DNA of 55,377 nucleotides from an uncultured Elusimicrobia bacterium. Its GTDB lineage: Bacteria; Elusimicrobiota; Elusimicrobia; UBA1565; UBA9628. The DNA lies in contig CAIKVT010000030.1 of assembly GCA_903830945.1 (NCBI GenBank), positions 1 to 55,377 of the forward strand. The letters run 5' to 3'. Every line of letters starts with the position of its first letter. Within the stretch, counting starts at the first letter, position 1. A program made the translations under genes and the position numbers. Of the stretch, positions 20,674 through 45,900 are shown in pieces. The notes beneath the pieces are model-generated. The model made no database searches and was not told the DNA's origin. It was given only the letters and a program-made list of their open reading frames with translations.

Positions 20674-21681
20674 TCAAAGCTCACCCAAAATCCTTACCGC
20701 CGGCATGACGGCGGGCGCCGGGACCGATATCATCAACACCGGAGCCGGCGCGGCTTCAGGGACTGCTTTGGAGGTCGCCCCACCCCACCGGAACGCCACG
20801 CTCAGCCGGTTCGAGTAGCCCAGCGCACCGAAGGGAACGATCGCGTAATCGAAATCGAAGTCGTGGATCCGGCAGCCGATCCCGGCCGTGATCCCCACAC
20901 CCGCGTCGTTGCTCTGGTTGTAACCCAGCCGAAGAGCCAGCATCTTGAGCACCCGCGTCTCCACGCCTACGGAGACATAGGCCGAATCGTTGCGCTCCTT
21001 CACCACGTCCAGAGCCAAAGCGTGGCTCGCCCCCAGCCAGTCGCGACGGTACGCCCCGCCCAACCGCCAGGTCAGCGGCTGGTTCTCCTGCGCCTGGTCG
21101 TAACTCACCGTCGGGCCCATGTTCTGCACCGCCGCGCCCACCGAAAGCCCTGACAGCCGCGGCACGACGTAGTGGCCGCCCAGGTCGAATGAGGCGTTGT
21201 CCCGCGGCGTCTGGTCTATGACCTCTCGGATATACCTGCCCCCGACGCCTACGGATAAGTCGTCGGTCAGCTTGCGGCCATAACCGAGTCCCAGCGCCAA
21301 GTCCGAAAGCGAGGTCTGGCCAAGCCCGTCGCCGGCAGGATGGTCCAAAGTGGTCCGCTGCACGTCGCCGAAGCTCAAGTAGTTGAGGCTGGCGCCCAGC
21401 CCCAACGGCGAAGCCAGATTCAGGTACTCCTGGGTGACGCCCTGAAAGTACTGGTTGTGCATGAAACTCACTTCGTTGCTTTCGGTGCGCGCCAGTCCCG
21501 CCGGGTTGTAGGCCAAGGATCCGGCGCCTGTGCCCAGGGCCGTGTATGCCCCACCCAGGGCCGCAGCCCGCGCGTTGGCGTCCAGGAGCAGGAAACCGTA
21601 AGGGTCCGCGCCCCCGGACGCCCGGAGGGGCACCGGAGCCAGCAAGGCCAAGGCCACGACTATCCCTAGCGTTGTTTTCAT
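20674..21681 (-). CDS. Second PorV/PorQ-family outer-membrane beta-barrel protein
   Basis: The protein has 335 residues. The ATG (21681-21679) overlaps the TGA of the 8504-aa giant by ATGA and begins a signal peptide (MKTTLGIVVALALLAPVPLRA). The in-frame extension up to 21789 lies inside the giant gene and lacks a signal peptide at its end, so it is rejected. The mature part has the family signature FLLLDANARAAALGGAYTA, then LAYNPAGL, and many alternating barrel strands. The last strand, SVAFRWGG, is followed by a 35-residue Ala/Pro/Val-rich tail that the first PorV-like protein lacks. Family role: recognition and shuttling of type-IX substrates at the outer membrane. The coupling suggests it serves the giant protein encoded just upstream. 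Confidence 0.85.
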   Translation of the reverse strand: MKTTLGIVVALALLAPVPLRASGGADPYGFLLLDANARAAALGGAYTALGTGAGSLAYNPAGLARTESNEVSFMHNQYFQGVTQEYLNLASPLGLGASLNYLSFGDVQRTTLDHPAGDGLGQTSLSDLALGLGYGRKLTDDLSVGVGGRYIREVIDQTPRDNASFDLGGHYVVPRLSGLSVGAAVQNMGPTVSYDQAQENQPLTWRLGGAYRRDWLGASHALALDVVKERNDSAYVSVGVETRVLKMLALRLGYNQSNDAGVGITAGIGCRIHDFDFDYAIVPFGALGYSNRLSVAFRWGGATSKAVPEAAPAPVLMISVPAPAVMPAVRILGEL

Positions 21682-21990
21682 CGCACGATGATGAGCTTCT
21701 TGACAACCTGTCCGCAGCCAGGACTGCTGAGCACCGCGATATAGCCGCCCGAGGCCACGTCCTGTCCGCTGTCGTTCTTCACGTCCCATTGCAGCTTGCC
21801 GCTCGACACAGCCGTGTCCATCCGCGCCACCCGCCGCCCGGTGATCGTGTAGATCTCGATGGTCACCGCGTTGGGCAGGTTGTCGAAAATGATCCCGGAT
21901 TTAGGATCGCCGACGGAGTAGGGATGACCACGGTTGGGGTCGCTGCCGTTGGGCCGATACGGGATCGGATAGACAAGCACCGCGCTAAGG
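21678..21990 (-). other. C-terminal FlgD/T9SS type-A-like sorting domain of the second giant
   Basis: Residues about 8402-8504 read VYPIPYRP, IIFDNLP, VTIEIYTITGRRVARMD, LQWDVKNDSGQDVASGGY and a basic end strand VVKKLIIVR. This is the standard layout of type-A C-terminal domains (Y-P-N-P-like start, I-Y-x-x-x-G-x-x-V, W-D/G-Y turn, K-K-L-x-V-x-R end). It is preceded by VNHLSIFAAIG, matching VDHFSTFVVLDG in the first giant. Confidence 0.75.
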
Positions 21991-24900
21991 TCCGAACCCG
22001 CGGCCGTGCCAATGGCTGCAAAAATGGAAAGATGGTTGACTTGCGCCACGAGCACCTGGTGCACCGTGTCGATGCTGCTGCCTGGCACGAATTCCCAGAG
22101 CCCGGTGGCCTCGTTGAGCCAGTAAAGCTGCAGGGTACCGACCGGGACGCGCGGCGACAACCCATCCACAAAGCCCGTATTGTTGACATCTGAATAAGGC
22201 ACCCTGATCGTCACCGCCGTCCACAACGCCTGCGTAAAGCGCTCGCCGTTGACGGACACGATGTACTCGGTTATAGAAGCGGTAGACACATGCAGGGAAC
22301 CGGGCAATGACACGTCGGCCTGGGCGATGAGGCTCGGCGTCTGGCCGGTCAGTGGAGCCTGGACCGGATCCTCGGAGAGGAGCCATTGCACGTCCGGCGG
22401 AGTGCTGCCCAGCGGGACATCGAGTTCGCGCTTGTTGTCAGCCCCCAAGAGCGTCCCGGAGCTGAGCCCCGTCATGAAGGACTGCTGGTAGGGCGTGGCC
22501 ACGACCACGGTGTTCGAGAAAGCCTGACCGCTCGGGTTGTAAGCCTCGATGTAGCGCGCGTAGCGTACCTGCGTGATAAGCGGCGTCTCCAGGTAGAAGC
22601 TCGCCGACGAGGGCAGCTGGGCTATCAGGATACCCGAACTCGTCCAGAAGCGATAGGAAGCAGCGACATTGGCCGCACCCGTGGTCCAGTACCAGCGCAC
22701 CGAGCCGCTCGACACCGTGACCGCGGCCAGCACCGGAGCCGAGGGCGGAGCCGGGAAGGTCAAAGTCGAGACCGTCTGGTCGTAGGCCGTGGGCACGCCG
22801 CCGCCATTGAAGCCGCGCACCCGATAGTAATATGTGGTCAGGGGCACGCCAAAATCCGTGAACTGCGTGGCCGCGCCCAGCGCAGCCGAGGAGGCGACCT
22901 CCGCGAACACGCCCGCAGCGGCGCTGGCGCGCTCCACCGCGTAGGCCGAGGCGGCCCCGGTGGGCGTCCATTCCACCCGCACGAAAGCCCCGGGCAGGGG
23001 CAAGGCCGTGGTGTCAGCCGGAGGCGCGGCCAGGGTCCAGACCGTGGTCACGGTACTCAGGGCCGTCCCGGACTCGTCCACCGCCTCCACCGCGAGACTT
23101 ACGGCCGTGTTCGTGGCTAGGTTGACCTGGCTGAAAGAATTGGTGCTCAGCCCGACAACCTGCAGGAAAAGGTTGCCCTGAACCGCAGAATAGACGTTGT
23201 AGCTGGAAGCCGAGGACACCGCATTCCAGGTCCAGGAGAGCACTGCGCTCTCGGCCGCGGCGCCCAGTCCGTTGGGCACGGCCGGATTGAACAGACGGGT
23301 GAAGGCCGCTATGCTCGAGGTGAACACCGTGTCGAGCCCGGCCCGATTGGTCGCCTTCACCCTGAAATAATAGGTCGTGGCCGGAGTGAGCCCGGTGAAG
23401 CCGGCCGCCGCGTCCGAAACAGCGGCCGATGCGGCCAGCAGCGTGAAGTCCGGGCCGGTGGAGAGCAGCGCCGTGTAGCGCGTGTCGCCAGGATTGCTGT
23501 TGGCGCCCCACTGGAAGGACAGGGTCAGCGAACTGCGCGTCACTGTCCAGGGCGAGACCGGGACCGCGGACGCGGTCACCGTGGCCGCGTCAATAGAGAA
23601 GTCCGTGTACACGCTCATCCGGTTGGCCGCCTGCACGCCCAGGTAATAGCTGGTGTTGGGCACAAAACCGGTGAACAGGGTCGTGAAGCTCGTCGTGTTC
23701 GCGCGGAGGTTACCGGGAATGCCATTGGCTCCCGGGGCAGGATATGAGGAGATGACCGCGGTATAAGGAGTACCCGCCGGGTTGTCGTTGGCGCCCCAAT
23801 TCGCCTGCGCCTGCCCCATCGTCACGCCGGTCAAGAACACCGGGGTTGGGATGGCAGCCCAGGTCATGGCCGCAGACAGGGTCACGAAGCCCGTATGAAT
23901 GCCGCCATAGCTGACGGCTTCGACGCGCGTGTAGTAGGTGGCGTTAGGGTTGAGACCCGTGAAGGCCGCGGCCGTGCTCACGGTCACGCTGGTCGTGAAC
24001 ACGGAGAAGGCGGGGTCCGTGCTCAGCTGCGCGATGTACATGGTGCCCGCCGGGTCACCGTCCTGGCCCCAGTTGGCGGTGAGCGCGATGGCCAGCGGCG
24101 AGGGCGCCTGCGCGATGGGGGCGTTTGCCAAGGTGACCGTCGTACCGACCGAGGTGTAGTCCGAGCAGCCGGCCGAGCCGCAGGCCGAGACCAGACCGTA
24201 GTAGGTGGTGTTCGGAGTCAAGCCGCCCACCGTCACGGTGGTGATCTGGGTCCGGACCGCGGGCGCGCCGGCGCCGGGGTTGGTAGGGCTGGTGGAGGCG
24301 GCGAAATAATAATAGTCCGCGTCGGCGGCCGCGCTCCAGCCCGCCTTGAGCGTGACCGCGGTCACGTTGATGATGCCGATGCCGCCGACGGCGGCGCCGG
24401 GCGCGGTCGCGCCGCTGCCCAGCGCCGTGAACGCGCTGCTCAATCCCCCGAACCCTACCGCCTTCACGTCCACGTAATAGATGGTATTGGGCGGCCGGGA
24501 TATGAACAAGGCATAGGTGTTGATCGTGGTGGTGGTGACGTTGCCGGAAGCGCCGTTGGTACTGGGCGCAGCCTTGGTCGATAGGATGGCCACGTAACTC
24601 GTGCCCGGCGCGTTGCCGTTGGCCAGCCAGTTGGCCTGGATCTGGGTCGTCCCAGCCGTGAAGGGCGTCGCCGCGCCGACCGGCGCGGCGGGCCAGGTGA
24701 CGGTGGAGACCGGAGTGGTGAAAGCGGTGAGCACGCCGGCGAAATTCCGCGCGGCCACCCGCAGGTAACAGGTGGTGTTGGCGCCCAGGTCGGAGAACAC
24801 GACGGCGGTGTTGAACGTGAGGCTCGAAGTGCTCAGAGAGGCGAACGACGGGTCTGTGCTGAGCTGAGCCAGGTAAACGGTGCCCGCGGGATCGCCGTTG

Positions 24901-27900
24901 GCCGACCAGTTGGCGGTCAATTGGGCGGTCTGCACTCCTGAGAACAGAGCCGTGGCCGGGACATTGGCCCAGGTCGACGTACCTCCCAGCACAGTGAAGC
25001 TCGTGGCCGCCCCCTCACTATTGAGCACAGCCACATCCGCGTAGTAGGTGGCGTTAGGGTTGAGGCCAACAAACAGGGCATAGGTGTTGAGCGTGGTGGT
25101 GCTGGAGTTGCCAATGAAGCCGTTGACGCTAGGTGAGGAGCCGGTGGAGAGGATCACCAGATACTGGACCCCCTGATTCCCGTTCGCACTCCAATTCGCC
25201 TGCACCTGGCTCGTGGTCACGTTGGAGAACGGCCCGGCCACGGCGGTCAACGCTAAGGTGGCCGTGGTAGGCAAAACCGCGAAGGAGCCGGCTACCCCGT
25301 CATAATTGACCGCTTGGACCCGGCTGTAATAAGTAGTGTTGGCACTCAGGTCGGAGAACGCGGCGAAGGTGTTGAGCGTGCGGCTTGAGGCGGCCAGCGG
25401 CGCGAAGGCCGGGGCGGTGCTGAGTTGGGCCACGTAAAGAGTACCCTCCGGGTCTTCGTCAAGAGTCCAGTTCAAGGTCAGCTGGCCTGCCTGCACGTCG
25501 CTGGGCACGGCCGAACCAGGGGTGTTGACCCAGGTCGCAGTCCCGCCCAGGGCCGCGTAATCCGTGGGCAGGCCGATGCGGTTGATGGCCTGCACGTCCG
25601 AATAGTAGGTGGTGTTCGCGCTCAGGCCCGTGAACAAGGCATAGGCATTGAGCGTAGCGCTCGACGCGGTCAGCGTGCCGAATGCCGAGTCCGTGCTGAG
25701 CTGCACGAAATAGGCGGTGCCCATGGGATTACTGTTGGCGCCCCAGACAGCCTGGACCTGACCCGTGCTCGCGATAACGAAAGGTGCCGTCCTGGGGATC
25801 GCGGCCAGCGTGGCTGCGGCCGGCAGAATCACAAAGGCCGTAGCGATGCACGAGAAGTTGAACGCCTCTACGCGCGAATAATAAGTCGTGTTGGGCAGGA
25901 GCTGTGAGAAGATCGCGCCCGTGCTCACGGTCCGGGCCGAGGCCAGGCTCCCGAAATTCGGGTCGGTGCTGAGCTGGACTATATAGGTCGTGCCCGGCGG
26001 ATCGCCATCAGGGTCCCAGCCCGCGGCGACCGTGGAGCTCGACGTGGCGGGCACTGCGGCCAAAGGCGCGTTGGCCTGCGTGACGGTCGTGCCCTCCACG
26101 ACGTAGGACGAGCAGGTCAGCGCGCTGCAGGCGTTGACGAAGACGTAGCAGGTAGTATTCGGGGGCAGGCCCCCGACTGCGCCCGTGGGCATCACAAACG
26201 AGCCCGCAGACAATATCGGGGCCGGAGGCAGGCCGGGGTTCGTGGAGACCACCATGGTATACGAGCTGGCCCCGACAACGGCGCTCCAGGATGCGGTAAC
26301 GGTTCCGGTCCCGACCGCGGTGATGGGGCCCGTGCTGGGCGGTTGGGCCAGCGACGTCGCGGTCACGCCCAGAGCCGTAAAGCTGCTGCGGGCGCCGCTG
26401 AAGCCGATGGCCTGCACGTCCACGTAATAGGTGGTGTTCGCGAACAGGGGGGAGAACAAGGCGTAAAGGTTCTGGGTCGAGACGGGGACGTTGCCGGAAT
26501 CCCCGTTGGCGCTGGGCGAAGGACCGGTCGAAAGGATAGCCGCGTACATGGTCCCATCCGAGTTACCGTTAGCGAGCCAGTTTGCCCGCAGCTGAGAGAC
26601 ACCGGTGTTGTAGGCCGCGGCCCCAGGCGCGGCCGGCCAGGTCATAGTCGAGACCGGGCCAGCGAAGGCCGTGATAATGCCCGCTGAATTCTCAGCCGCC
26701 ACCCTGAAATAATAGGTCGCGTTGGCGCTGAGGGGGGAGAACATGCTGGAAGTGCTCAGCGTAACGCTCGACGCACTCAGCGTGCCGAAGACCGCGTCCG
26801 TGCTGAACTGGGTTATATAAGAAGTGCCTGCGGGATTTCCGTTGGCAGACCAATCGACGGTGGATTGGAAGGCCGACACGCCGGAGAACGCAGCCGTGCT
26901 CGGAACATTGGCCCAAGTCGGAGTGCCGCCCAGCACCGTAAAGGCCGTGGGCACCCCTTCGCTGTTGAGCACGGCCACGTCCACGTAATACATGACATTG
27001 GGATGGAGGCCGGCGGAGTGACGGCCGGTGAAGAGGAAATAGGTATTGAGCGTGGTGGTGGTGAAATTCCCGCTGAAGCCGTTACTGCTCGGCGAGAATC
27101 CGGTGGAAAGGGCCACCAGATACGTCACCCCCTGGTTGCCGTTGGCAAGCCAGTTAGCCTGGACCTGGGTCGAGGTTACATGAGAGAAATCATCGCCGCC
27201 GGCGCTCAACGCCATGGTGGCCGTAGCGGGCAAAACCGTAAAGACGCTAGCGACCCCAGCATCATTAACCGCTTGGACCTCGCCGTAGTAGGTAGTGTTG
27301 GGGGAAAGTCCTCTGAACATGGCGGAGTTGCTCTGGGTGTAAACGGACTGCGCCCCGGCGAAGCTTTGGTCGGCGCTCAACTGAGCGACATAGCTCGTGC
27401 CGGCCGGGTTGTTATTGGCGCCCCAGTTCAGGGTCAGCCGGCTGTCCAGGACATCGCTGGCCGCAGCCGTGCTGGGGGCGTTGACCCAAGTCACGGTCCC
27501 GCCCAGGGCCGCGAAAGTCGTGGTCGACCCGAGGCGGCCGATAGCCTGCACGTCCACGTAGTACGTGAAGTTGGGGCGCAGGCCGACACCGGATGGCCGG
27601 CCAGTGAATACGAACTGGGAGTTGAGCGTGATGGTAGTGTAGTTGCCGCTGAAGCCGTTAATGCTGGGCGAAGGCCCGGTAGAGAGTTCGGCCCTGTAGA
27701 GCGTGTCCACCGGATTGTAGTTGTTGCCCCAGGCCGCCTGGACCTGGCCCGTGCTCGCGATGACGAAGGGCGCCGTGCTGGGGGCCACGGGCAAGGTGAC
27801 GAAAGGCACCAAGGCCGTGAAGGTGCTGGCCGTGCCCGCCCAATTGACGGCCGCCACGCGCGAATAATAGGTCGTGTTGGGAGTGAGCGGAGAGAATGGT

Positions 27901-30900
27901 ATGGATGTGCTGACCGTAAGGGTCGACTCACCGTTGGGCAGGCCCAGCAGGCTCGGCGCGGCGAAGCTGGGGTTGGTGCTTAACTCGACCCAATAGTTCG
28001 TGCCCGGCGGGTTGCCGTTGGCAGACCAGGTTTCGGTCATGGAACTCACGTTCACCGAGGACACGGCCAGGCTCGCGATGGCGGCCGGCCATGTGATGGT
28101 GGAGACAGTGGCAAATCCGCTCGGCGAGCCGCCGCCCAAGGCAACGAAGGCCTGCACACCAAGGTAGTAGGTGGTGTTCGGCTGGATCTCCTGGGAGCCG
28201 GAGATCGTGGCCGTGGTCAACACGGTCTGACTGCTGAATACGGTCCCGGAGAAATCCACGGCCGTGGAGACCTGCAGCAGGTAAGCCACGCTCGCGGAGC
28301 TGCCGCTGACGCCCCAGGTGAGGCCGGCCGTGAACGTGCTGACGTTGACCACCGTAGGACCGAAGGGCTTGGGAAGCGCCATGGCAGCCACCGGGATCGT
28401 GTAGGCCGCGGTGGACACGTTGCCGGCGAAGTCCGAGACGACGAAGGCGACCTGGTTGGTGGCCGGATGACCGCGCCAGGCCGCGTTGACGATAGGGATG
28501 TTGTCGGCCTCCAAAGTGGCCGACTGGGTGCCATTGGAACCGACCGTGATGTTGCTGACGCTGGCGGTAGAAACGAAGTTCCAGGCCGCACCGGCCGTGG
28601 TGGTGCAGTAAACGCTGTAAGCCGCGCCGCGGTTCTGCGCGGCCAAGGTATCCGACTCGTAGTCGGCGAGGATTTGGGCCGAGGAACGGGCCACGTTGAA
28701 GATGCGCACCTCGTCGATCAGGCCGTTGAAATATTTGCCGTCCTGTCTTGCGCCGATGCGTAGAGGCACGGCATAGTCGGCCAGAGCGCTGCCAGTTATG
28801 GAGCCGGCTAGGACGCCATTGACGTAGATATTCCCTGAGGTCCCGGATTGAACCGCGGCGATATGGGACCAAACGCCTATTGGCAGCGTGTAATTGATGA
28901 AGGACACGCTGCCAAGGCTTACCCAAGCAATCTGCTGTGTTCCGGCATTGTTGAGTTCCAGGACATATCCTGCGGTGCCATTAGCATCATCCCTCTTGTC
29001 TACTATCCCCATGCCGTTACCAGGGGTGGGCAGCGCGGCCGGATTCACCCATGTCTCCACTGTGATGGCCGGAGGCGTCAAGGCGCTGTTATTGGCGACG
29101 GTCACGTAACTATTGCTGCCATTGAAGCTCAACGCCGAGCCGCGCTTGCCCGCCACCCAGGTAAGAGTGCCGACCAACACGCCGTTGAAGGCGTCAGTCG
29201 AGGCATCCAGGGCCACGCTGCCCGAACTCTCGTCGAAATGCCACTGGCCTACGAGGCCGCTGGGCAAACCGGTGGAGACCAGCAGGCCCGAGCCGGAGTC
29301 CTGGACCGTGACGCGCACGGAGACCGTGCCCGAGGAGAGGTAGGGCGCGGTTGACAGGCTCATCCAGCCGGAAGATAGAGCAGTGGCGATATAAGGCGCG
29401 GAGAAAACCGGAGGAATCAGGTCTATGGGCAGGCTCTGAGCCGCGGACCAGTTGGTTATGCTGACGCCCGGCGAGCCCACGCGCCACCAATAAGTCTGAG
29501 CGTCATTCAAGGCGTTAGTCGAGACGTAGAAGGTGTTGGCCGTGGTCGAGTCCGCGATGACCTGCGTGAAGCCCTGGTCATTGGCTAGCTGCAGCCGGCT
29601 CTTGCCCGTGAGTTGGGTCCAGGTCAGGACTGGAGCAGCCGTGCTGACCACGGCCCCGCTAGCCGGGCTCAGAGCGACCGGCGCCGGAGCCGCGGTGTCC
29701 ACCAGGATGGTATAGACCGCGGTGGACACGTTGCCCGCGAAGTCCGAGACAACGAAGGCGACCTGGTCCGTAGCCGCGCCTGGGCCGGTGGAGGTGACCA
29801 GCGGGATGTTGCTGGCCTGCACGGTCTGGGCCGTCTGCATGCCGTCTGAGCCGCCCATAGTCACATTGCTGGTAGAGAGGAAATTCCACGTTGCGCCGGC
29901 GTCAGTCGAGTAGAACACCTTATGGGACGAGGACCGATTCTGAGCGGCGGAAGTATCCTTATAATCGGACAGGATCTGGGCGTCTGAGCGTACCGCGTTG
30001 AAGATGCGCACCTCGTCGAGGCTGCCGTTAAATAATCCAGTGGACCATCCCGCCGCTCCAATCTTCAAGAATGAAGATATCTGCGGGGCCTCCCCCGCCT
30101 GTGTGGAGTCCAGTGCCCCGTTAAGATACATCCGTGCATAGGTCCCATCGTAGGTGAGGGCGACATGGGTCCATACGCCCGTGGCCACGGTCCCGGAGCT
30201 GTAAAGTGCCCGGTTGGAAGCGGGCAACCACAAGAGCTTCGTGTTGGAACTGATCCCAAAATCGTAACCGGCGCTGCCGCCGTTCTCATTGCCGTCTATG
30301 ATGGTGACGCCGCCCGTCCCCGCCGCGCTGATCTTCACAAGTCCGCTGTTTCCACTTCCTGGTGCTGCGACGCCATAGCCGGCAGATCCAGCACGGTCGG
30401 GATCATCGTAGTTCCCTGGAGTGATTCCCGAGCCATTGCTGACAGTTGTTCCTAGGCTATTACCTCCACCACCCCCAGCCCCTCCGTTTTGATCGACACT
30501 TGCAGGTCCTCCTCCTGTGCCTCCATTGTCGCCTCCACCACCGCCGCCGCCTGCGCTGGCGTCCCAGCTAGGTATGCCTCCATCGCCGCCATGCGTACTG
30601 CCGCTAGCGCCAGCAGTTCCTCCTGAGGCGCCATATCCTGGGCTGCCGTTGACACCGCCGCCGCCGCCTGCGCCGGCATTGATACCGGTTTCTATACCGC
30701 CGCCACCACCACCGCCGCCCGCGGCCAACAGGATTGCATTACTTGCATTTAAAATAAAACTACCGCCGCCGCCCCCACCGCCACCGCCTGAACATCCACT
30801 AGATCCGGAGTTGCCGCCAGCTCCGCCGGCACCGATGCCATTATACCCGGTGCCAGCCGAACCTCCCCCAGCACTCATGACGCATTCTACAGATCCAGCG

Positions 30901-33900
30901 CCGCCACCTCCTCCGACGATGACGGTCAGGACTTGACCGGGGGTCACCGCAAGAGTGGAACTGGCGTATGCGCCGCCGCCTCCGGCTCCTCCCGAGCTAT
31001 TCAAGCCACCTCCACCACCACCCGCACCCCAGGCCTTGACCGTGATAGAGGTGACTCCGGGAGGAACAGTATAAGTCGCTCCTCCGGCGGTGCTGACCGT
31101 GTAACTCGCCTGGACGGATGTAGGGATCGTGGTCGGATTGACCCAGGCCTCGATGGTAAGCGGCGTCGCCCCATAGAGGACGCCCGTGTTGGGGAAGCTG
31201 ACATAATTGCTCGCGCCGTCGAAGCTCAAGGCCCCGCCACGTTTACCGCCCGTCGAAGCCCAACTTGCCCCGACGACAGTCCCGTTCTGGCCGTAGCCCG
31301 ACGAGTCATAAGCGGTGGCGCCGAAGGTTTCATCGAAATGCCACTGGCCCACGAGCCCCGCCGGCGGCGCTGTGGCCAGCAGGAGCCCGGAGCCCGTATC
31401 CTGAACGCTGACACTGACTGAAACGGAAGTGGAGGAGAAATAGGTCATAGACGGCAGGCTCGTCCAGCCGGAAGCCGGGGCAGTGGAAGCCTGCGGCCCG
31501 GAAAGGACCGGCGCAGCGGTGTCCACGAAGAAGCTGTAGGCCGCGGACCATGAGTTCGGGTTGCTCGTCAATTGCGCATGCCACCAATAGGTAAGCCCAT
31601 TGTTCAGCCCACTCACTGGGCAATACGGGTTAGCCGTGGTCGAATCCGCCACGATGGCATTGAAGCCCACGTCCGACGCGACCTGGACACGCACGTTGCC
31701 CGAGCCGCTCCAGGTCAGCACCGGCGCGGTGGAAGCGAGGCGCTTGCCATTGCTCGGGGTGACCAAAGTCGGGATCGTGCGGGTGTCCACCGTGATGGCG
31801 TAGACCGCTGTGGACACGTTGCCCGCGAAGTCCGAGACCACGAAGGCGACTTGGTCCAGCGCGGCACCCGTCCCGGCGGAGGTGACCACCGGGATGTTGT
31901 CCGCCTCCAGGGTCTCCTGCGCCGTGTCGCCGTTGACGCCGCTGCCGCTCAACGAAACGCTGGCGGTGGAGACGAAGTTCCAATGGGAACCGGCATCGTT
32001 GGAGTAGAACACGTTGTAGGCTTGACCGCGATTCTGGGCGGCCAAGGTGTCGGACTGATAATCCGAGAGTATCTGCGCCGACGAGCGCGCCACATTGTAG
32101 ATGCGGACATCCTCCATGCGACCGCCGAACTGCTGCCACCAAGGGTCCACGGACGCGCCCAGGCGCAGCGGTTGGGCGTTGAATGCCCAGGATGCTGAGT
32201 TCGTACACGATGCCTCGGCTTTCCCATTGAGGTAGAGCGTGTCGACCCCGCCGTTGGCCTGGGAATAAGTCAGAGCGACATGGTACCACTGGTTGGCGGA
32301 AAGAACCGTGGGACCGACACAGTTGTACGCAAAGGCCGATCCATTTTTTAACTCGGCAGCGAGAGTGTTGCCCTGGATGACGAAGGAGATCCCAGACCAG
32401 GAACTCACTGCGTCGGCGCGACTCATCAGCATGATGCCGTTGCCGACGGGAAGGCTGGTGGGGTATATCCATGCGCTCCACGTGCCCGAGGCGCCGTCGA
32501 ATGCAGGGTTGCTTGGGATATTGACATATTGCCCGGAACCATTGAAGCTCAAGGCCGCGCCCTTGATGCCGGCCGTCCACACCATGTTGCTAAGCACCGT
32601 GCCGTTTATGGCATTGGTCGAGGCGTCCAGGGCTACGGTGCCGGAGCCTTCGTCCAGGTGCCACTGCGCTACCAGACCGACAGGCAGGCCAGTGGAAACC
32701 AGAAGACCGGAGCCCAGATCCTGGACCGCGACTCGCACCGAGGCCGTGCTGGCCAAGACGGTGGTCGTCGGGAGGCTGGTCCAGCCCGAGACCGGGGAAT
32801 AGACCAGAGGTCCGGAGATGGCCGGGCCGGCGAGGTCCACCACGAAAGTGAAGGTCGAAGACCAGGCATTCATGTTGGGGCTCGCGGCCGTTATGGCGCG
32901 CCAGTAATAGGTCCCGCCGCGCAACCCGCTTGCCACATAGTAAGAGTTGGCCGTAATCGAGGACGCCACGATGGTAGTGAAGCCCGCATCCGACGCGACC
33001 TCGACGAGCACGCTGCCCGCGCCGCTCCAGCTCAGCACGGGCGCGGAGGTGCTGACCGAAGTCTCGTTGGCCGGGGCGAACAAGACCGGCGCCGGGGTGG
33101 TGTCTACCAGCACGGTGTAGACCGCGGTGGACACGTTGCCAACCATATCCGAGGCGATGAAGGCAATCTGGTCCGTAATCGCGCCGGTGCCGATAGAGGT
33201 GACGACAGGGACGTTGTCCGCTTCCAAAGTCAGGGACGCCAGCGTGCCGTTGGAACCGCCCATCGTGACACTGTTGGCGGAGACGGTGTTCCAGGTTGAG
33301 CCAGCGTTGGTGGAGTACATGACATTGTAGGCCACGCCGCGATTGTGCGCGGCCAAGGTGTCGGACTGGTAATCAGCCAAAATTTGGGCTGACGAGCGAG
33401 TCACCTTCAAAACACGCAGTTCATCAATGGCTCCATGGAAATAGCCACCCATCGGGCCTCCGACCGAGTATGCTCCTATCTGCGCGCTGACGCTACCTTC
33501 TCCCGCATTAGTATAAGCCGCATTCTCGCCGTCAAGCACTCCGTTCACATACACTTTCATCCCATCCGGCCCCAAGGTTGCAGCGACGTGATACCACTGG
33601 CCGGCTTGCAGGACAGAGGATCCATTGATCGATATCCAGCAGTATTTATTGTCGCACTCGGGGACGGGGATATTCCAAGCATGTCTACTGAATGAAACCG
33701 CACTTCCGGCGCAAGCACCCAAACCATAGTTAAGCCCGCCACCCGTATTTTCGGCATAAACGGTGCAATCGCTGGCACCTTGAGGCCGGACCCAGGCCTC
33801 AATGGTCTGGTTGGGCGAGGGAGAGAGGGCGGGATCGCCGGCCAGCTGGACATATTGGGATGATCCGTCGAAGGAAAGGGCCGAGCCCCGCTTGCCTGCG

Positions 33901-36900
33901 ACCCAGGCCGGAGCGTTGACCAGAAGGCCGCTAAAGGCATGGGTCGAGGCATCCAGGATCACGGTGCCGGAGCCCTCATCAAGATGCCACTGCCCCATCA
34001 GACCTATAGGCAGGCCAGTAGAGACCAACAACCCGGAGCCCGAATCCTGAATGCTGATCTTGATTGAAACGGAAGTGGAGGAGAAATAGGCCGAAGACGG
34101 CAGGCTCGTCCAGATGCCGGTTGAGACCTGCGGCCCGAAAAATACCGGGGCAGCGTCGTCCATGAAAAAACTGTAAACCGCGGACCAAGCGTTCGCATCA
34201 GGGCTCGCGGCCGTCATGGCCCGCCAATAATAGGTGGTCCCGCCGCTCAGTCCGCTCGCCGGGCAATAAGAGTTGGCCGTAGTCGAGGACGCCGCGATGA
34301 TCCTGAAGTCCGCATATTGCGACACCTGGACGCTCACATCCCCCAGACCGGACCAGGTCAACACCGGAGCAGAGGCGCTGACTGGAGTCCCGTTGGCCGG
34401 GGAGAGCAGGACCGGCACCTGATTCGTGTCCACCAGCACGGTGTAGACCGCGGTGGACACGTTACCGACCATGTCCGAGACCACGAAGACGATCTGGTCC
34501 GTGGCCGCGCCTGGACCGGTTGAGGTGACGACCGGGATGTTGCTGGCCTGCAGGGTTTCCTGCGTCATGTCGCCGTTGACGCCGCTGCCGCCGCTCAAAA
34601 AAATGCTGGCGGTAGAGATGAAGTTCCAAGTGGAACCGGCGTTGGTGGAGTAAAGGACGTTGTAGGCTTGGCCGCGATTATGGGAGGCCAAGGTGTCTGA
34701 CTGATAGTCAGCCAAAACCTGGGCCGTGGTACGGGCGACATTGAAGAGGCGGAACTCGTCTAACGCGCCGCCCCAATATTGGTTATTGGAATTGCCGGTA
34801 CCGTCGGTCCCGATTATATTAACGGGATGAGCCGCCCCGTCGACGGCAGTCGCAACGCTCCCGACAGGAATCCCGTCGATATAGAATCTCGTGGAGTTCG
34901 CGCCTACGGAGGCCACGGCCGCCAAGTGATGCCAGCCATTCAAAGCGCTAACACTGTAGCCGGAAGAGACAAAGCCGGATCCGTTATATGCGCCGAGATT
35001 CCCGTTCAAATCAAGAAGAACATGATTGTAGCCAGTCTGGCTGGACCCCAAAAGGGAATTCCAGTTGCCGTGCAGGTTCAAAGGGAATTCCGACCAGGTT
35101 TCGACGGTCCAGTTTGAGCCCATGTTGATGCTACGAACCGACATAGAGTTGCCGTAGGCATTAAATGAGATGGCCCCGCCGCTGATGCCGGCAGTCCAGG
35201 TCGGGCCACCGACCAAAGTTCCATTATAGACGTTGGTCGAGGCGTCCAAAGCCACGGTGCCCGAACTCTCATCGAAGTGCCACTGAGCCATGAGGCCCAC
35301 GGGCAGGCTGGTGGAAACCAATAGCCCGGAACCAGAATCTTGAATATTGATCTTGACCGAAACGGAAGAGGAGGAGAAATAGGCAGAAGACGGCATGTTC
35401 GTCCAGATAGCGGTGGAGACCTGCGGCCCGGAAAGGACCGGCGCGACGTTGTCCACCGTGAAGCTGTAAGCCGAGGACCAGTTGCCCGGGTCAATGCTCG
35501 GCGCGACCCGCCACCAATAGGGCGTGCCGTTGGCCAGCGCCAGAACGCCGGCCGGGACGGCATAGGTATGATTGACGGTGATGGAGTCCGTGAGTATGGT
35601 GTTGAAGCCCGAGTCCAAGGCCACTTGCACGCGGGAAGGGCTGAGCCGCGAAGACCGCCAAGCCAGCACCGGCTGAGCCGTGGAGACCACGGACCCGTCG
35701 GCGGGCGCGTAAAGATGACGCGGCGAGATCAAGGTGGCTGAACCGATGGCCACGAAATCCGCCGCGCCCACCCAGTTCAAGGCGCCCACGCGCACATAGT
35801 AGGTGCTGTACGTGCTCAGGCCAGACACGGTCAAGGTGCTCAAGGCCGCATCAGCCGCGGCGCTGGAGAAAACGGTCCCGCTGAAATCCGACATGGTCGA
35901 GGCTTGCAGGAGATAGCCCTGGCATGCGGTCAAGACCAGGGGCTGCCAATTCGCCACCAAGCTGGTGTCGAAAACCTCGCTGATCTGCCCGGCCAGGACC
36001 GGCGCGGCCAACGTGGGCGTGGCCACCGCGGCGTCGAAAACGGTCCACACTCCGCCCAAGTTCTGAGCCCGGGCGCGCAGATAATAGGTCGTGTCCGACA
36101 AGAGACCCGACACCATGGCCGAGGTTGCGACGGTCTGGCTGCTGCCGGCCAAGAGTTGAAAACCCGTTAAGGACGAAACCCCGACCCAGTAGCTCGTACC
36201 GGCCGGATTGCTGTTGGCATACCAACCCAAGGTCAGCGAGCTGCTGGACGCGAAGAGGGCGACCGAGCCGGCCGGCGGCACGGCCAAGGTGTAGGCCGTG
36301 ACCCCGGCCGAGAGCGGGCCTTCGCTGCCCGCGCCCACTCCCGAGACCATGGCCGCAAACGCCGTGTTCGTGGAAAGCCTTGTCGAGGTCAAGAACGTGC
36401 CGGCCAGCCGGAGCGCAGGGCCGCCGGTGGAGGGATAGAAGGCGTAGCTGGAAGCGTCGCTCACGCTGTTCCAGCTCCAGGCGATGGAACTCACGCCCAA
36501 AGTCGTGGGGGAAGGCGTGGGCGCAGCCGGGGTCTGCACAGCATAAAACTGGGATACCCTGCTGTTGCCGAAATCGCCTGCCCACACGTTGCGGCCCGTG
36601 TCCACCGCCAATGACCTCGGCTGGTTCAAGGTATTGGCCTGCGACCCGGTGCCGCGATTGGCGGCATTGGAGACATAATCAGCTTGGCCCACCACCCAGT
36701 CCGCGTTCATGCCGGTCGTAAAAGGAGGCGAATAGCGCAGGAACCGGCTGTTGTAAGTGTCCGCGACCCAGAGCTCGCCGATGAAGTCAACAGTCAGGCC
36801 CGAGGGGTTGGATAATGTATTGGCCGCCGAAGACAGGGCGCCGCTGTTGGCCTGGACGGAATTGAAGTCCGACTGGCCCAGGACCAGGTCCGCGGCCATA

Positions 36901-39900
36901 CCCGTGGCCTGGGGCGCGCCGTAGCGCAAGACCCGATTGTTGGACGAGTCCGCCACCCACACGGTCCCACCCGCGTCCACGCGCACGGACGAGGGGGCGG
37001 CCAAGGTGACGCTCGTGGCTCCGGCCGCCCCGGAAGTCAGGCCCGACTGGCCCAGCGTCAGGTTCGCAGGCATGCCCGAGGAGACCGGAGCGTTGTAACG
37101 CAGGACCCTATTATTGTTGAGGTCCGCGACCCAGACGTTGCTGGAGGCGTCCACGGCCACGCTCGCCGGGCACGACAATGTGTTGGCGGCCACGGCCCCA
37201 CCCTGGTTGGCCGCCTTAGATGTGAAATCGGACTGCCCCAACACGAGGTCCGCGCTCATGCCGTTGGCAAACGGCGGCGCATAGCGTAGGACCCGGCTGT
37301 TGAGGCAGTCCGCCACCCAGAGATTGCCGCCGGTATCGAAGGAGACCCCTTGCGGCGAATAGAGCGTGCCAGCCGTAGGCAACGGCGGGGTATAGCCGCT
37401 GGTGAAGACGGACTGGCCCAGCACGAGACTCGCGTTCATGCTGTTGGAAAATGGCGGCGCATAGCGCAGGACCCGGTTGTTCACCGCGTCCGCCACCCAG
37501 AGGTTGCCGGAAGCGTCCAGCGCCACCTCATAAGGGCTGCTCAAAGTATTGGCAAAAGGCGACGCATTGCCGCGGTTGCCAACTGAAGATAGGAAATCCG
37601 CCTGGCCAAGGGGCACGCCCGCGATGGCCGTGACTATGGAGGGCGGCGGAGACAAGGTATAGGTGGTCGCGGACGCCGAGAGCAAGCCCACCACTGCCTG
37701 GGAGTCCACGCCAGCGACGCGGATGCCGTAGGCCGTGAGCCCGACCAGACCCGTAGACACCCAGGGCGGTTGGGCAACGTTGGCGAGCAATGCCCCGGAA
37801 GCCGCGGAGTAGACGTTGAAGCTGACCGCGCCTCCGGCCGCGAGCCAGGTCCAGGTGATCGAGGACACGCCCAAAGCCGTGCCGACCGGGGTTATGACCA
37901 GTCCGGGAATGGTGATGGTCGAACCCAGGTAGGTATAGGCCGAGACATCCAGGCTATTGTTGGCCGAAGCGAAGAGATAGTAGGGGGTGGACGGAGAGAG
38001 CCCTGAGACCGTGGCTGTAATCGCGGCCGTGGCCGAAGAGCCGGCGATCAAGGTGGTTGGGTAGGCGGAGGAGGTGGAGGCCACCAAGGTATAGCCGGTG
38101 GCGGCTCCGACCGAGCCCCATTGCGCCTTGACCGAGGCGGTGCCGACAGAGAGCACGGCAGGAGAGACCAGGGGCGGGGCCGTGATGGGGACGAAGACCA
38201 TGGCGCGCACGCTCCTTGCAGCGACCGTATCCCCGACGAAAAGCCGCCGGGTCCCCGGGTCGTAGGAGGCGGATAAGGGATAGGGCAGGCTCTTTTGTCC
38301 GGGGGCGGTACCGCCCACACCGAGCACATAAGAGGCGTTCATGTTGTTCATGATGCCCTGGCTCAGCTCGAAGAGCATGATGCGCGAATTGCTCCGGTCG
38401 GCTACGAAGAGCCTTTGGCCTGCCGGATCAAAGCCGACTCCGTAAGGGCTACTCAACGCAGACTGGGAGGACCCGCTGACACTGGTAGTGAACCCGCTCT
38501 GCCCGAGCACATATGAGGCGTTCATGCCGTTGCTGATGCCCTGGCTCAGGTCGAAGCTCAGCACGCGGTTACCGTTCACCTCGCAGGTGAACAGTCTTTG
38601 GCTGGCCAGGTCGTAGGCCAAGCCGGTGACGAAGTTAAAGCTGTTCTGAGCCGGATTGGAGGGAGTAGCATTCGAGGTGAAATTGGTCTGTCCCAGCACC
38701 CATGAGGCGTTCATGCCGTTGCTGATGCCCTGGCTCAGGTCAAAGACCAACATCCGGTTACTGTCGCTGACGAAGAGCCTCTGTCCGGCCGGGTCCCAAG
38801 CGACGCTGTACCCGGCGATGAGTTGGCTCTGGCTCGTGACCGGGCTGTTCGTGGTGAAATTAGGCTGCCCCAGAACATAAGCCGCGTTCATACCGTTCGT
38901 GACGCCCTGACTGAGGTCGAACGCAAGAACACGATGGTTGCTCTGTTCAGCCACGAAAAGCCTCTGTCGGGCCGGGTCATAAGCCAGGCCCTGGGGGCTG
39001 TTCATCTTGTTCTGCGCCGCGGCGTTGCCCGTGGTCGTGAAATCCGGCTGGCCTAGCACAAAGGCCGCGTTCATCCCGTTGACCAGGCCCGCGCTGAGGT
39101 CATAGACCAGCACGCGGTGCTTGAGGGAGTCACTGACGAAGAGCCTCTGTCCGGCCGGGTCATAAGCGAAACCACCGCCTGTCAGCGAGCCTCCGGCAGC
39201 CGCGGTGGAGTTCATAGTGGTGAAATCAGGCTGGCCCAGCACGAAGCTCGCGTTCATCCCGTTACCGAAGACCTGAAGCGCGGGCGGGGTGAGCAAAGAG
39301 ACCGGGTTGCTCGCCGGGCCCTGAGTCCCGGCGTAGGTGGCGATGACCTGAAAATAGTAGGTGGTGCTCGGGAAGAGCCCGGAGGCCACGGTCGCAGCAG
39401 AAGTCGTGGTCACGACAGTGGACCATCCTGTAGACCCGTCCAGGCTCTGCTGGAGCGCGTAACTGGTCCCGGCCGGGTAGCCGTTGGGGTTCCAGGCCAG
39501 GCCCGCGCTCACAGGCCCGCTCCAGAGCGCGGCCAGAACAGGCGTGGGCGGGGGTCCGGTCGTAGTCGATCCCAACAAGGTGTAGGCGCTCATCTCGTTG
39601 GAGCCGGTCGCGGCCACGAAGAGGTAGTAGAACGTGTTCGGCGCCAGGCCAAAGACCGTGGCCGTGGTCAGGGCCGTGAGCGAGGAGCCCGCAATCGCGG
39701 CCGGCGGCAGATCGCTGGAGGCGGAAACGACCAGGCTGTAGCCGGTAGCGCCGGCCACCAGGCCCCACTGCGCCTGGATGGAGTTGAAGCCCACGGAAAG
39801 CACAGCGGGCACCATGGGCGTCGGCGCAACCAAGGGAGTGAAGATGAGCGTCCGATTGATGCCCGTGTCGCCGATGAATAATTGGCGCGTTCCAGGATCG

Positions 39901-42900
39901 TAGGACGGGTTATTATAAGGGTTGGACATCCGGTTCTGCAGGACGAGGCCGCTTGAGTGAGAGTAGAAATTGTCCTGCCCCAGGACATAGGCCGCGTTCA
40001 TGTTGTTGGCGACGCCTTGGCTCAAGTCGAAGATCAGCACGCGATTGTTGCTGGTGTCGGTCACGAAAAGCCGCGCCCCGGCCGGATCCAAAGCCACGCC
40101 CTCCGGGTAGTTCATGCCGTTGGGGCCGGAGGTCGCGACGCTCGTCGTGAAGTTGGCCTGGCCCAGGACATAGGCGGCGTTCATGCCGTTTGAGATGCCC
40201 TGGCTTAGATCAAAGGCCAGCACGCGGTTGGAGCCGGCATCGCTGGCAAACAGCTTCTGGCTGCCCAGGTCATAGGCGAGGCCCATAGGGGACTTCGTCA
40301 CATTCTGGGTAGTCCCGGGGTTGTATATGTTGAAGGCGGTCTGCCCCAGCACAAAGGAGGCGTTCATTCCGTTGGCGATGCCCCGGCTCAGGTCGAAGGC
40401 CAGGAGTCGAGAATACCCCGCGTCGGAGACAAAAAGCCTCTGCCTAGCCTGCTCATAGGCCAGCCCCTGGGGGCTCCTGATGCTGTTCTGGTTCAAGCCG
40501 GACCCGTTCGAGGTGAAATTGGTCTGCCCCAGGACATAGACCGCGTTCATGCCGTTCGTGATGCCTTGGCTCAGGTCGAAGACCAGCACGCGTAGGTTGC
40601 CCGTGTCCGCGACGAAGAGGTTCTGCGCCACCGGGTCATAAGCCAAGGAGTACGGACCGGAGAGCCCGTTCTGCGTGCGGTTCGCGGTGTTGGAAGTAAA
40701 ATCGGCCTGGCCCAGCACATTGGCCGCGTTCATGCCGGTAGCAGCGCCTCCCGCGAGGTTGAAGACCAGCACCCGGTTGTTCGCGTTGTCGACCACGAAG
40801 AGCCGCTGCAGGACAGGGTCGTAAGCGGAACCTTCGTTCTGATACATCTTGCTCTGGGTAGTGCCGTATGAACTCGAGGTGAAATTGCTTTGGCCCAGAG
40901 CGAAGCGCGCGTTCTGACCACTGGCAAAGTTCTGAATGCCATCGAGCGTTAAGAAAGACACGGTGCCGCTGGGCGCGGTGGTATTCCCAAGGATATCCTG
41001 CGTCACAACCCGATAATAATAGGTGGTGCTCGGCGAGAGCCCGAAGGCCACGGTCGCGGCGAAAGTGGTGGTCTGCACCGTGGACCAGGAGGCCCCGTCC
41101 GGGCCCTGCTGGACCTGGTAGAAGGTCCCTGCGGGGTTGCCGTTAGGGCGCCAACCTAGGGCCGCGTTGCTCGCGCCGTTCCAGAGTACGGCCAGGTTGG
41201 CTGCGGGCGCGGCCGGCGTGACCGTGGAGCCTAAAAGCGTATAGTCCGATGGGCCGACAGCCCCTACGGCACTGGAAAAGAGGTAATAGGTCGTGTTGGG
41301 CCAGAGGCCGGAGACCGTGGCCGTGGTCCGGGCCGTGCTCGACGAGCCCGCAACGGCCGTGGGGGGAATAGCGCTCGATGTCGAGGCGACCAACAGGTAG
41401 CCGGTGGCGCCCGGGGCCAAAGCCCACTGGGCCTGTATGCTCGTAGTGGCCACGGCCAAAATCGGCAGGCTGACCGGCCCGGGCGCGGCCTGCTGGCCGA
41501 ATAGGAGCACTCGGGAATTGACATCATCCGCGACGAAGAGAGTCCGAGAGCCAGGGTCATAAGCCAAGCCCCAGGGATCATACATCCCGCTCTGGGTGGT
41601 GGCGGAAAGTTTCGAGGTAAAATTGGCCTGACCCAGAACATAACTGGCGTTCATGCCGTTGGTGATGCCATTGGCCAGGTTGAAAGCCAAAATACGGTTA
41701 TTGTTGAAGTCGACCACGAAGAGACGCTGCTGGGCCGGGTCATAGGAGGCGCCCATAGGAGCGAACATCCCCGCCTGGGTGACGGTGGAGCCGCTCGCGG
41801 TGAAATTCGCCTGGCCCAGCACGGCGCTGGCGTTCATGCCGTTGGATATGCCGTTAGCCAGATTGAAGACCATGACCCGGTTGCCGCCGTCAGACACGAA
41901 AAGCCTCTGACCGGCCAGGTCGTAGGCAGAGCCCTGGGGCAGATACATCCCGCTCTGGGTTACGATGGAATTACTAGCGGTGAAATTGGCTTGGCCCAGC
42001 ACATTGCTCGCGGACATGCCGCTGGTAATGCCGTTGGCCAGGTTGAAGACCAGCACGCGGCTATTGCCATGGTCCACCACGAAAAGCCGCTGCTGGGCCG
42101 GGTCATACTCCAAGTCCGAGGGATAGTCCATGGCGCTGGAGCTTGTGGCGCCGATGGAAGCGGTGAAGTTCATCTGGCCCAGCACGAAGCTCGCGGCCAT
42201 GCCGTTGGAGATCGTGCCGGGAGCCGTGTTGAAGACCAGCACGCGGTTGTAGCTGTAGTCGGCCACGAAGAGCCTCTGGCTGACCTGGTCATAGGCAAGG
42301 CCCTGAGGCGAAGACAGGCTGCGGCTCGACGCGGCGACGCTGCTGGAAGTCGTGAAATTGGCCTGACCCAGAACATAACTGGCGTTCATGTTATTGGAGA
42401 TGCCGTTGGCCAGGTTGAAGACCAACACGCGATTGTTACCATAGTCGCTCACGAAGAGCCTCTGGTTGGCCGAATCATAAGCAAATCCCTCGGGCTGCTT
42501 CAGACCGGGCTGGGTGGTGTTGCCGCCGCGCGTGGTGAAATCAGCCTGGCCCAGCACAAAGCTCGCGTTCTGGCCGTTGCTCAAACTCAAGTCAGCGAGC
42601 AGCGTGAACAAGGACGTCGTCACGGTCAAGGCGCTGGCGCCCACACCTACCTTATAATAGTAGGTGGTGCTGGGCGAGAGCCCGGAGACCTGAATCGCGG
42701 TGAAAGACGTGGCCGCCACCGTGGACCAGTTGGAGCCGTCCAGGCTCTGCTGGACCGTATAGGTACTGCCTGCGGGACTGCCGTTCGGATTCCAGGCCAA
42801 ACCCGCGTTGCTCGCGCCGTTCCAAAGAACGGTCAGGTTGGATGGAGCATAGACCCTGGTGTCCACGCACACCACATATGCGGCACTGGACACGTTGCCG

Positions 42901-45900
42901 GCCATGTCGGAAACGAAGAAAGCGACTTGGTTCGTCGGGCTCGTGGAGGTGACCAGGGGGATGTCGTCCGCCTCCAAGGTCTGCGCGTCAATAGTTCCAT
43001 TGGAGCCGGACAAGGTGACGCTGTTGGTGGAGACGAAATTCCAGTTAGCGCCGGCGGTGGTGGAGTAAAGCACGTTATAGGCCTGGCCACGGTTCTGCGC
43101 AGCCAAGGTGTCGCTTTGGAGCATGTTCCAGATCTGAATGGAGGAAAGAGCCACGCTGAAGAGACGGGTCTCGTCGAGTTTCCCCAATAAATATGGATCG
43201 GCGGAATACTGGGACTTCCCGAAGAAATTGAGGTTCGTGCTGCCCAGGCTCGACGGCGTCAGCGTCATGCTGGTATTGCTCGCCACGACCACGCCGTCTA
43301 TGTATAACGTGCCCAGCGAGGCCGAATGGTCGAGCGTGACCGCGATATGATGCCAGACTCCCGTCTTCAGCGCCGCCGGCGCGTTGATGCGCTGCTCGTT
43401 ACCGTTGCCGCTGGTGGTGATCGCGAAACGAGGCGTTCCATCGGAAGAGTCGGGTGTCAGGAACATATTGACATTGGTTCCCGTTCCAAAATCGAAGAAC
43501 CTCTGCCAGGCCGACGCAGACTGCCAATAGACCCAACTCGCGAACGTGAAGCTGGTCAATCCCTGCACGAGACCCGAGGACAGGCTGACGTAACTATTGC
43601 CGCCCAGGAAGTTCAAGGCACTGCCGCGTTTGCCCGCCACCCAGGTCAGGTTGTTGACGAGCCGGCCGTTGTAAGCGTTGGTCGAAGCATCCAGGGCCAC
43701 GCTGCCCGAGCTTTCGTCGAAATGCCACTGGCCCACGAGGCCCACGGGCAGGCCGGTGGAAACCAGAAGCCCGGAGTTGATGTCCTGCACCGATATCGTG
43801 ACCGAGACCATGCTCCCTCCCAGCAAGGTCGTCGTGGGCAAGCCCAGGAAAACGCCGGTCGGCGAAGTCGAGACCTGAGCACCAGAATAGGCGGGCAAGT
43901 CCAGGTCCGTCAGGAAGCTGGAAGCCGCGGACCAATCGGAACTGCCGCACGCTCTCCAATAATAGGCGGTCGCATTGGTCAGAGTGTTGGTAGAGACATA
44001 GTAAGGAAGAGCCGTAATCGAATCCACAACGATCTGGGTGAAGCTTTGATCCAAGGCGACCTGCACCCGCCAGGGGGCAAAGCCGCCGATCCAGGTCAAA
44101 AGCGGGGCCCCGGCGTTGACCGGGACTCCGCTGACTGGACTCGCCATGTTGGGCGGCGCGGCCAAGGTCATGGTGGATCCCAGCAACAGGTACCCTGAAA
44201 CACCGTTGATGCCATTGGCGTTGACGAAGAGATAATAAGTCGTGTGCAGAGCCAGACCCGAGACCGTGGCCATGGTCAGGGCCGTGGCAGACGAGCCCAC
44301 GATGAGCAGAGGTGGGGTGGCGCTCGAGGTCGATGCAACCAAGGTGTAGCCGGCCGCGGCATAAGCCGAACCCCACTGGGCCTGGATGCTCGTCGTGGTC
44401 ACGGCCAATATAGGGGGGCTTGCGGCCGGCGGAGCGTCCTGCTGGCCGAAGATGAGCACGCGGTTGTTGCTCTGATCCGCGACAAATAACTGCTTGGAGC
44501 CTGGGTCGAAAGCCACGCCATAAGGATAATGCATCCCGCTCTGTGTGGCGGTGGCGACATTCGAAGTGAAATTACCCTCTCCCAGCACCAGGCTGGCGTT
44601 CATGCCGTTGGTGATGCCGCCGGCCAGGTTGTAGGCCACCACGCGGTCACTGTCCGTCACGAAAAGCCTCTGCTGGGCCTGGTCATAGGTTGCGGCCCCG
44701 GGAGAATACTGCCCGTTCTGGCTGACGGCGGCATTATACGAGATGAAATTGGTCTGGCCCAGCACGAAGCTCGCGTTCATGCCGTTGGCGATGGCGCTGG
44801 GAGCCGCATTGAAGACCAAAGTGCGGTTGTTGCCGTAGTCGGCCACGAATAGACGTTGATTGCCAGGATCATAGGCAAGCCCCGAGGGATTGTCCATACC
44901 GGTCTGGGTATGGGCCAGGGCATTGGAAGTGAAATTGGCCTGGCCCAGCACATTGCTTGCGAGCATCCCGTTAGCGATGCCGTTGGCTAGGTTGAAGACC
45001 AAAGCGCGGTGATTGCCGTAGTCGGCTACAAAAAGGCGTTGATTGCCGGGGTCGTAGGCAACGCCAGAGGGGAGGGACATGCCGTTCTGGGTAGCGGCGG
45101 TTCCGTAAGAGGTGAAATTGGCCTGGCCCAGCACATTGCCGGCGAGCATCCCATCCGTGATGCCTCCGGCCAGATTGAAGACCAGAACGCGGTTGTTGTG
45201 GAAGTCGGCCATAAAAAGCCTTTGATTGACCGGGTCATAGGCCAGGCCCTCGGGATAGGACATGCCGCTCTGGGTATGGGCCGCCGCATGAGAGGTAAAA
45301 TCGGGCTGGCCCAGCACATTGACCGCGTTCATGCCGTTGGCAGCGCCGTTGGCCAGGCTGAAGACCAACACGCGGTTGTTGTTGCTGTCGGCCACGAAAA
45401 GCCTATCATTAGCCGGGTCATATACGCCGCTTGCAGGAGAATTCATCGCGCCCTGACTGAAGGCGGTGGTCGCCGAGGTGAAATTGGACTGGCCCAGCAC
45501 AAAGCTCGCGTTCTGGCCATTGGAGAAGGACTGGTCCACGGGCAAGGTGGTCAATAACGCTGTGTTCGAGACATTGAACCCCGCGGCCAGGACCTGATAG
45601 TAGTAGGTGGTCAGGGGAGAAAGCCCGGAGACCAGGGCCGCTGTGAAGGTCGTGGTCAGCACCGTTGACCAATTGGAGCCGTCCAGACTCTGCTGGAGAG
45701 TGTAGGAAGTGCGGCCGGGAGTCCCGTTCCAGGCCAGGCCCGCGTTGCTCGCGCCGCTCCAGAGCGCAGTCAAGTTTGTCGGAGGAAGGACATTGGTGTC
45801 CACGAACACCACATAAGCAGCGCTGGACACGTTGCCGGCCATGTCGGAGACGAAGAAAGCGATCTTATTGGTGGGGCCCTGAGAGGTGACCAGCGGGATG

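Follow-up and report, generated by a model that had tools for sequence, protein, structure and literature searches.

The window, a stretch of 55,377 nucleotides, carries a giant reading frame whose FN3 array contains a superrepeat of seven domains, which the present analysis confirms. Domains 3-9 (copy 1, 1983 nt, 25803..27785) and domains 10-16 (copy 2, 1947 nt, 23856..25802), both on the minus strand, run through the same order of domain types, A B A B A C B, and each domain of the first copy pairs with its counterpart in the second. Judged from the sequence, this pairing is best explained by duplication of a seven-domain FN3 block. The superrepeat is thus real, and as a form of growth of a repetitive protein it is ordinary, since block growth is already known (Bjorklund 2006, titin, nebulin). 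The less expected and more novel part, which is put forward here as a lead, is the T9SS-like setting in which the gene is found in the Elusimicrobiota.

The giant reading frame and its superrepeat

The window is one whole contig of an Elusimicrobiota genome (3.24 Mb in 84 contigs, 99% complete). The giant ORF lies at 21678..47192 on the minus strand as a single open frame of 8504 aa; its start codon is TTG, and its N-terminus, as judged by eye, resembles a signal peptide. From N to C it is composed of LamG and NHL modules, five tandem LamG modules, 21 FN3-like domains and a C-terminal module. The first part (36513..47087, minus strand), which comprises another two LamG modules together with five of the FN3/NHL kind, extends to residue 3560. 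The five tandem LamG compound modules occupy 28386..35723 (minus strand, residues 3824-6269); they are about 430-445 aa long, with one of 698 aa that has a glycine-rich insert, and share 49-54% identity in pairs. A self-BLAST of the whole protein gave no off-diagonal rows, and module alignments were used instead, in which the FN3/NHL modules N1-N4 show 53-61% mutual identity. The array of 21 FN3-like domains (22491..28385, minus strand, residues 6270-8234) is followed by a C-terminal module of 270 aa (21681..22490, minus strand), the last part of which is FlgD_ig / Por_Secre_tail-like. With profile PF00041 the C-terminal 2304 aa of the protein scored 192 bits against a cut-off of 25; single domains did not all pass this cut-off alone, and domains 19-21 were weak. 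A PDB sequence search with the FN3 array at 1e-10 returned nothing.

Domain boundaries were placed by hand and the domains were compared all against all at the protein level. The pairs 3/10 to 9/16, taken in order, are 61, 54, 72, 60, 58, 41 and 52% identical, with a mean of 57%. Over the nine pairs at lag 7 the mean identity is 54%; lags 1-6, 8 and 9 give means of 37-43%. The lag-7 partner is the best match for all seven domains of copy 1 and for six of the seven in copy 2, the exception being domain 11, which is closest to domain 13. When the order of the 14 domains was shuffled, the observed mean lag-7 score was equalled in 2 of 100,000 shuffles, and in a second, local block-repeat test on the window array none of 1000 shuffles was as good. 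At the DNA level the seven best ungapped diagonals lie, in order of rank, at 1944, 1959, 561, 1950, 1956, 1947 and 1986 nt. It can be seen that the offset of about 1.98 kb, the subject of the dot-plot test proposed with the initial annotation, outranks single-domain spacing: six of the seven best diagonals fall at 1944-1986 nt, and the spacing of one domain (276 nt) ranks fifteenth. The superrepeat is an ordered multi-domain unit, in register, in two copies. The one-for-one match of domains 3-9 with 10-16 that had been described from the letters alone holds in its pairing, offset and coordinates, and the peptides quoted for it are present, as are the two ANVP-type domains (6 and 13).

Domains 17-18 (23289..23855, minus strand) had been taken to begin a third copy. 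The comparison does not support this: domain 17 agrees best with domain 7, then with 3 and 14, and domain 18 with 16 and 10, then with 4, so that no third copy can be recognised as beginning there. The unit occurs twice, fewer than the minimum of three copies set for a super-repeat of the titin or nebulin kind, domains 17-18 failing to match as the third.

Probable block duplication, smaller events and the age of the copies

Type A comprises domains 3, 5, 7, 10, 12 and 14, type B domains 4, 6, 9, 11, 13 and 16, and type C domains 8 and 15; the order A B A B A C B occurs twice in the superrepeat. Mean identities are 50% for A-A, 48% for B-B, 38% for A-B and 28% for A-C and B-C pairs, values that lean towards the scheme because types were assigned by eye before the means were computed. 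Pairs of the same type are 46-47% identical off lag 7, compared with 63% (A, n=3) and 56% (B, n=3) at lag 7.

In the preferred reading, the array next to the membrane-side C-terminal module grew stepwise, the block A B A B A C B was copied once in tandem and then diverged, and the product is a stalk for the LamG and NHL domains of a protein exported by a type IX-like route with a PorV partner; we hold this history, as a whole, with fair confidence. Single FN3 domains would first have given rise to alternating types A and B, from which the mixed run A B A B A C B would have formed. A single tandem duplication of the seven-domain block would have come next; what is observed is the lag-7 pairing, and the single event is what it suggests. 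Thereafter both copies would have diverged by point change and, within domain 10, through one or more small exchanges. The initial annotation had stated that the last large duplications copied blocks of seven domains. Block duplication stands as the best account of the pairing, but one such event is enough, and the phase of the block is not fixed.

It is unlikely, though it deserves the most weight among the alternatives, that the pattern arose as a patchwork of two-domain and single-domain duplications with local gene conversion and that seven domains were never copied together. The third-ranking DNA diagonal, at 561 nt, corresponds to two-domain spacing, lag 2 ranks second by mean score in the domain comparison, and domain 10 (25527..25802, minus strand) is a mosaic, all of which such a patchwork would explain. 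Compared by thirds, the outer parts of domain 10 are 67 and 68% identical to domain 3 and the middle third 33%, while this middle third is 58 and 54% identical to the B-type domains 11 and 6. However, 13 of the 14 domains, among them domains 8 and 15 of type C, prefer their exact lag-7 partner, and pairs of the same type are clearly less alike off lag 7 than at lag 7. The middle third is poorly conserved in pairs 3/10 (33%), 8/15 (33%) and 4/11 (39%). These poor middle thirds, together with the uneven divergence of the pairs (41-72%), count against an event in one block and leave room for a patchwork of smaller events.

Whatever the balance of larger and smaller events, the copies of the superrepeat are old and have since drifted apart. 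The seven lag-7 pairs, when pooled, gave a dN of 0.36 and a dS of about 0.91, and third positions are 55% identical in these pairs, compared with a mean of 45% in 126 other pairs. DNA identity on the main diagonals is 62-76%, and the longest exact DNA match is 18 nt at the block offset and 24 nt anywhere in the array. It had been proposed that the repeat could change length by recombination. For the present gene these values speak against it: a dS near 0.9 and no more than 18 identical nucleotides in succession at the offset leave little substrate for recombination today. The same divergence, with no long exact repeats, would make a short-read assembly of the block less doubtful.

A mechanical role of the FN3 array as a spacer or stalk is likely, because the array sits between domains of sugar-binding type and the C-terminal module. 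It would hold the lectin-like LamG domains and the NHL domains away from the cell, and the ancient seven-domain duplication would have lengthened this C-terminal stalk. With a length of about 3-4 nm per FN3 domain, a block of seven may add roughly 25 nm.

Such a stalk recalls the periscope proteins, which are likewise surface stalks of repeated domains near an anchor. That the array is itself a length-variable stalk of this type, still expanding and contracting by recombination, nevertheless seems improbable. A repeated array of extracellular type does lie near the C-terminal module, and other arrays of the phylum do contain long exact repeats, of 192 nt (locus L063) and 112 nt (locus L033, in the same genome as the window). 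In contrast, periscope proteins are characterised, in the text available of PMC8201768, by DNA repeats that are both long and closely alike and by observed variation in length, whereas the repeats of the window are old and diverged, and neither the exact matches nor the identity along their diagonals approaches that description.

FN3 arrays across the phylum

To place the superrepeat among its relatives, an FN3 domain profile was built from the window array and refined on 269 domains, and the window and 46 fetched loci were surveyed. The loci are not a random sample, having been picked, among the matches listed, by their match to the window's array or to its PorV neighbour; loci L001-L018, most of which are shorter copies of places fetched again, were omitted. 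In this set block repeats at lags of 2 or more were sought in 37 runs, each of at least 8 FN3 domains, a run being accepted when at most 5 of 1000 shuffles, or none of 200, did as well (runs of more than 25 domains were given 200 shuffles only). Block repeats were obtained in nine of the 37 runs, the window included, and the other 28 fell short of this threshold. The unit is five domains in loci L024 (21 pairs, 72%), L026, L031 and L036, fifteen in L027, three in L028, six in L041 and four in L056 (28 pairs over 32 domains); a unit of seven was found in the window alone. A global lag test, applied to a smaller set of 13 runs, agreed on the best lag for the window, L024, L026, L027, L028, L031 and L036, although weakly for L028 (p 0.05) and L036 (p 0.044), and L033 was marked at lag 1 (p 0.006).

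When the seven-domain order of the window was sought as a collinear match in the 36 other runs, the best results (3 of 200 shuffles for L048 and 6 of 200 for L046) were unconvincing over 36 tests. Block growth is thus recurrent in the phylum and, the block of the window not having been found collinear in the other runs, the unit of seven is this gene's own. With units of 3, 4, 5, 6, 7 and 15 domains in related giants, unit size is not set by the fold. The survey is more useful than the superrepeat alone, in that unit sizes vary within one phylum. Very little is left, on these data, for the idea that seven-domain spacing was selected as a ruler matching a fixed surface spacing, as in the titin A-band: the titin D-zone does consist of six copies of a seven-domain Ig/FN3 unit (PMC10665226, as far as its text was available), but here there are only two copies, and the unit differs among related arrays.

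A negative z at lag 1 was seen in seven of the nine block-type runs and in one of the 28 others; adjacent domains thus mostly do not exceed chance similarity in the block-type runs and usually do so in the rest. The way in which the block runs were selected accounts for part of this contrast. The contrast agrees with the idea, put forward in the available parts of PMC8201768 and PMC1553488, that unlike neighbouring domains avoid misfolding or aggregation.

An ortholog with the same array was not found among the genomes and loci compared, and a scan of named genomes with the window's array gave nothing. The closest match of the PorV neighbour in another genome of the same genus, among the matches listed, is 65% identical (genome G002); the cargo ORF before it has 729 aa and a C-terminal module of 57% identity, without the array. 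A scan with the neighbouring MR_MLE protein retrieved two Elusimicrobia MAGs (73 and 67% identity), in whose stretches of 21.0 and 18.1 kb no homologue of the PorV or giant gene was detected at 1e-10.

Growth by several domains at once, visible as similarity at a fixed lag, has been described for domain repeats by Bjorklund et al. 2006 (PMC1553488), and nebulin expands seven domains at a time according to the same paper; the study covers 24 species, seven of them bacterial and none from the Elusimicrobiota. The mode of growth is the same here, with FN3 domains in a bacterial giant protein. The titin D-zone (PMC10665226, text available in part) is likewise a seven-domain, FN3-rich unit with distinct types in a fixed order; in titin the unit includes Ig domains, occurs in six copies and is tied to the thick filament, whereas here it is made of FN3 only and occurs in two. 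Taken alone, the superrepeat is one more clear example, bacterial and made of FN3 domains, of a way of array growth that is already known.

The PorV-family neighbour and a putative type IX-like export

The next gene downstream of the giant ORF (20674..21681, minus strand) encodes an outer-membrane protein of the PorV/PorQ family, and its ATG overlaps the TGA of the giant ORF (ATGA). The protein scored 172 bits with NF033709 against a cut-off of 90 and matched PorV in the PDB (6h3i_F, E 4e-8); the genome as a whole has 21 matches to the PorV family. Ten junctions of cargo and PorV gene were read, at loci which had been chosen for their PorV neighbour. The ATGA overlap was present in nine, including both giants of the window, and in the tenth (locus L020) the ATG directly follows the stop. 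Among the 19 FN3-array ORFs with a readable C-terminus, a PorV-like gene lies at most 1.5 kb downstream in 12 and in the other seven there is none; this count leaves aside 12 of 31 array ORFs, 11 that run off the fetched stretch and one with masked bases near the C-terminus. In 10 of the 12 PorV-linked array ORFs, 224-531 residues separate the end of the last long FN3 run from the C-terminus.

A SprA-like match (TIGR04189) was obtained in 35 of 38 genomes and was above the cut-off in none. In the genome of the window the SprA-like ORF has 1932 aa and reaches 154 bits against a cut-off of 200, in three stretches; a PDB sequence search with this protein at a cut-off of 0.01 returned nothing. The SprA_N profile gave no match in this genome, and the control searches were equally silent. 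The same was true of the Peptidase_C25 profile (PF01364, PorU), for which the control genomes were silent too. Gene order, the family matches and the SprA-like gene elsewhere in the genome suggest that the giant protein is probably exported by a type IX-like route of divergent kind, in which the PorV-family protein next to it would be its dedicated partner. Against this export count the SprA matches and the scores of the C-terminal module, all of them below their cut-offs, the lack of SprA_N and Peptidase_C25 matches, with silent controls, and the seven array ORFs that have no PorV-like neighbour.

A broader reading, which we offer tentatively and rate at somewhat below even chances, is that the Elusimicrobiota possess a divergent type IX-like route for giant surface proteins, each translated in overlap with its own PorV-family partner. 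The FN3 stalks of these proteins would grow in two ways, by duplication of single domains, which sets like beside like, and by duplication of blocks with lineage-specific unit sizes, in which neighbours are unlike; the seven-domain copy of the window would be an instance of the latter. The arrangement may be compared with the T9SS type B pairs of Flavobacterium johnsoniae (PMC12618676, as far as its text was available), where a sorting-type C-terminal module, of which the module of the giant would be a putative counterpart, is combined with a linked outer-membrane partner. In F. johnsoniae, a member of the Bacteroidota, these partners are PorP/SprF-like shuttles, whereas here, in the Elusimicrobiota, a PorV/PorQ-family neighbour overlaps the stop of the cargo gene. 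No T9SS ascribed to Elusimicrobia was found in the literature examined, a search outside which most subscription papers fell. A T9SS-like setting outside the Bacteroidota would be important if confirmed.

The C-terminal module of the giant protein remains below the cut-offs of the sorting models (TIGR04183, 20.7 against 23 bits; PF18962, 14.5 against 27). Its structure model, built on 7 sequences, has a mean pLDDT of 78 and a pTM of 0.62. With low TM-scores, a fold search with this model placed PorZ (5m11, E 1.1e-5) and PorU (6za2, E 1.2e-4) at the top.

A recent expansion by single FN3 domains

Another FN3 array, of 10 domains, lies elsewhere in the window's own genome (G000) at locus L033 (contig C26, 174500-186394). 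The mean identity among these 10 domains is 66%, their spacing is mostly exactly 93 aa, and the array contains an exact repeat of 112 nt. This one genome holds both a young expansion by single domains, at L033, and the old, diverged seven-domain block copy of the main giant ORF.

Giant ORFs, PorV partners and variable cargo

Among the matches listed, the closest relative of the window's PorV from another genome is at L019 (15769-16797, contig C77 of G002, a genome of the same genus; 65%). The cargo ORF ahead of it is only 729 aa, against 8504 aa for the window's main giant: the C-terminal module and its PorV partner are retained, and the remaining cargo changes.

The window holds another such pair at 585-16408, where a giant ORF of 4958 aa, with beta-helix, InlB-type and carboxypeptidase-regulatory domains and FlgD_ig at its end, is also coupled by an ATGA overlap to its own PorV-like gene. 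At loci L040, L041 and L043, proteins with FN3 arrays have a different conserved C-terminus, and the next gene, instead of PorV, encodes a product whose N-terminus is of membrane type and whose length is about 450-470 aa.

Contig ends in the window's own genome

FN3 arrays or PorV copies were found at the ends of several G000 contigs (C8, C26, C29, C58 and C62). FN3 sequence reaches 32964 of 33087 in C62 and 185311 of 186394 in C26, and starts at 224 in C29; C8 and C58 end in PorV copies which, among the matches listed, are 76-79% like the window's PorV. The assembly of this genome may be missing further giant members of the family.

Other features in the window

The sixth LamG module of the main giant is 698 aa, compared with about 440 for the others, and carries a glycine-rich insert (about 30318-31142). 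A trypsin-like protease gene ends in a proline-rich tandem repeat (19275-19426) with units of 27-57 nt.
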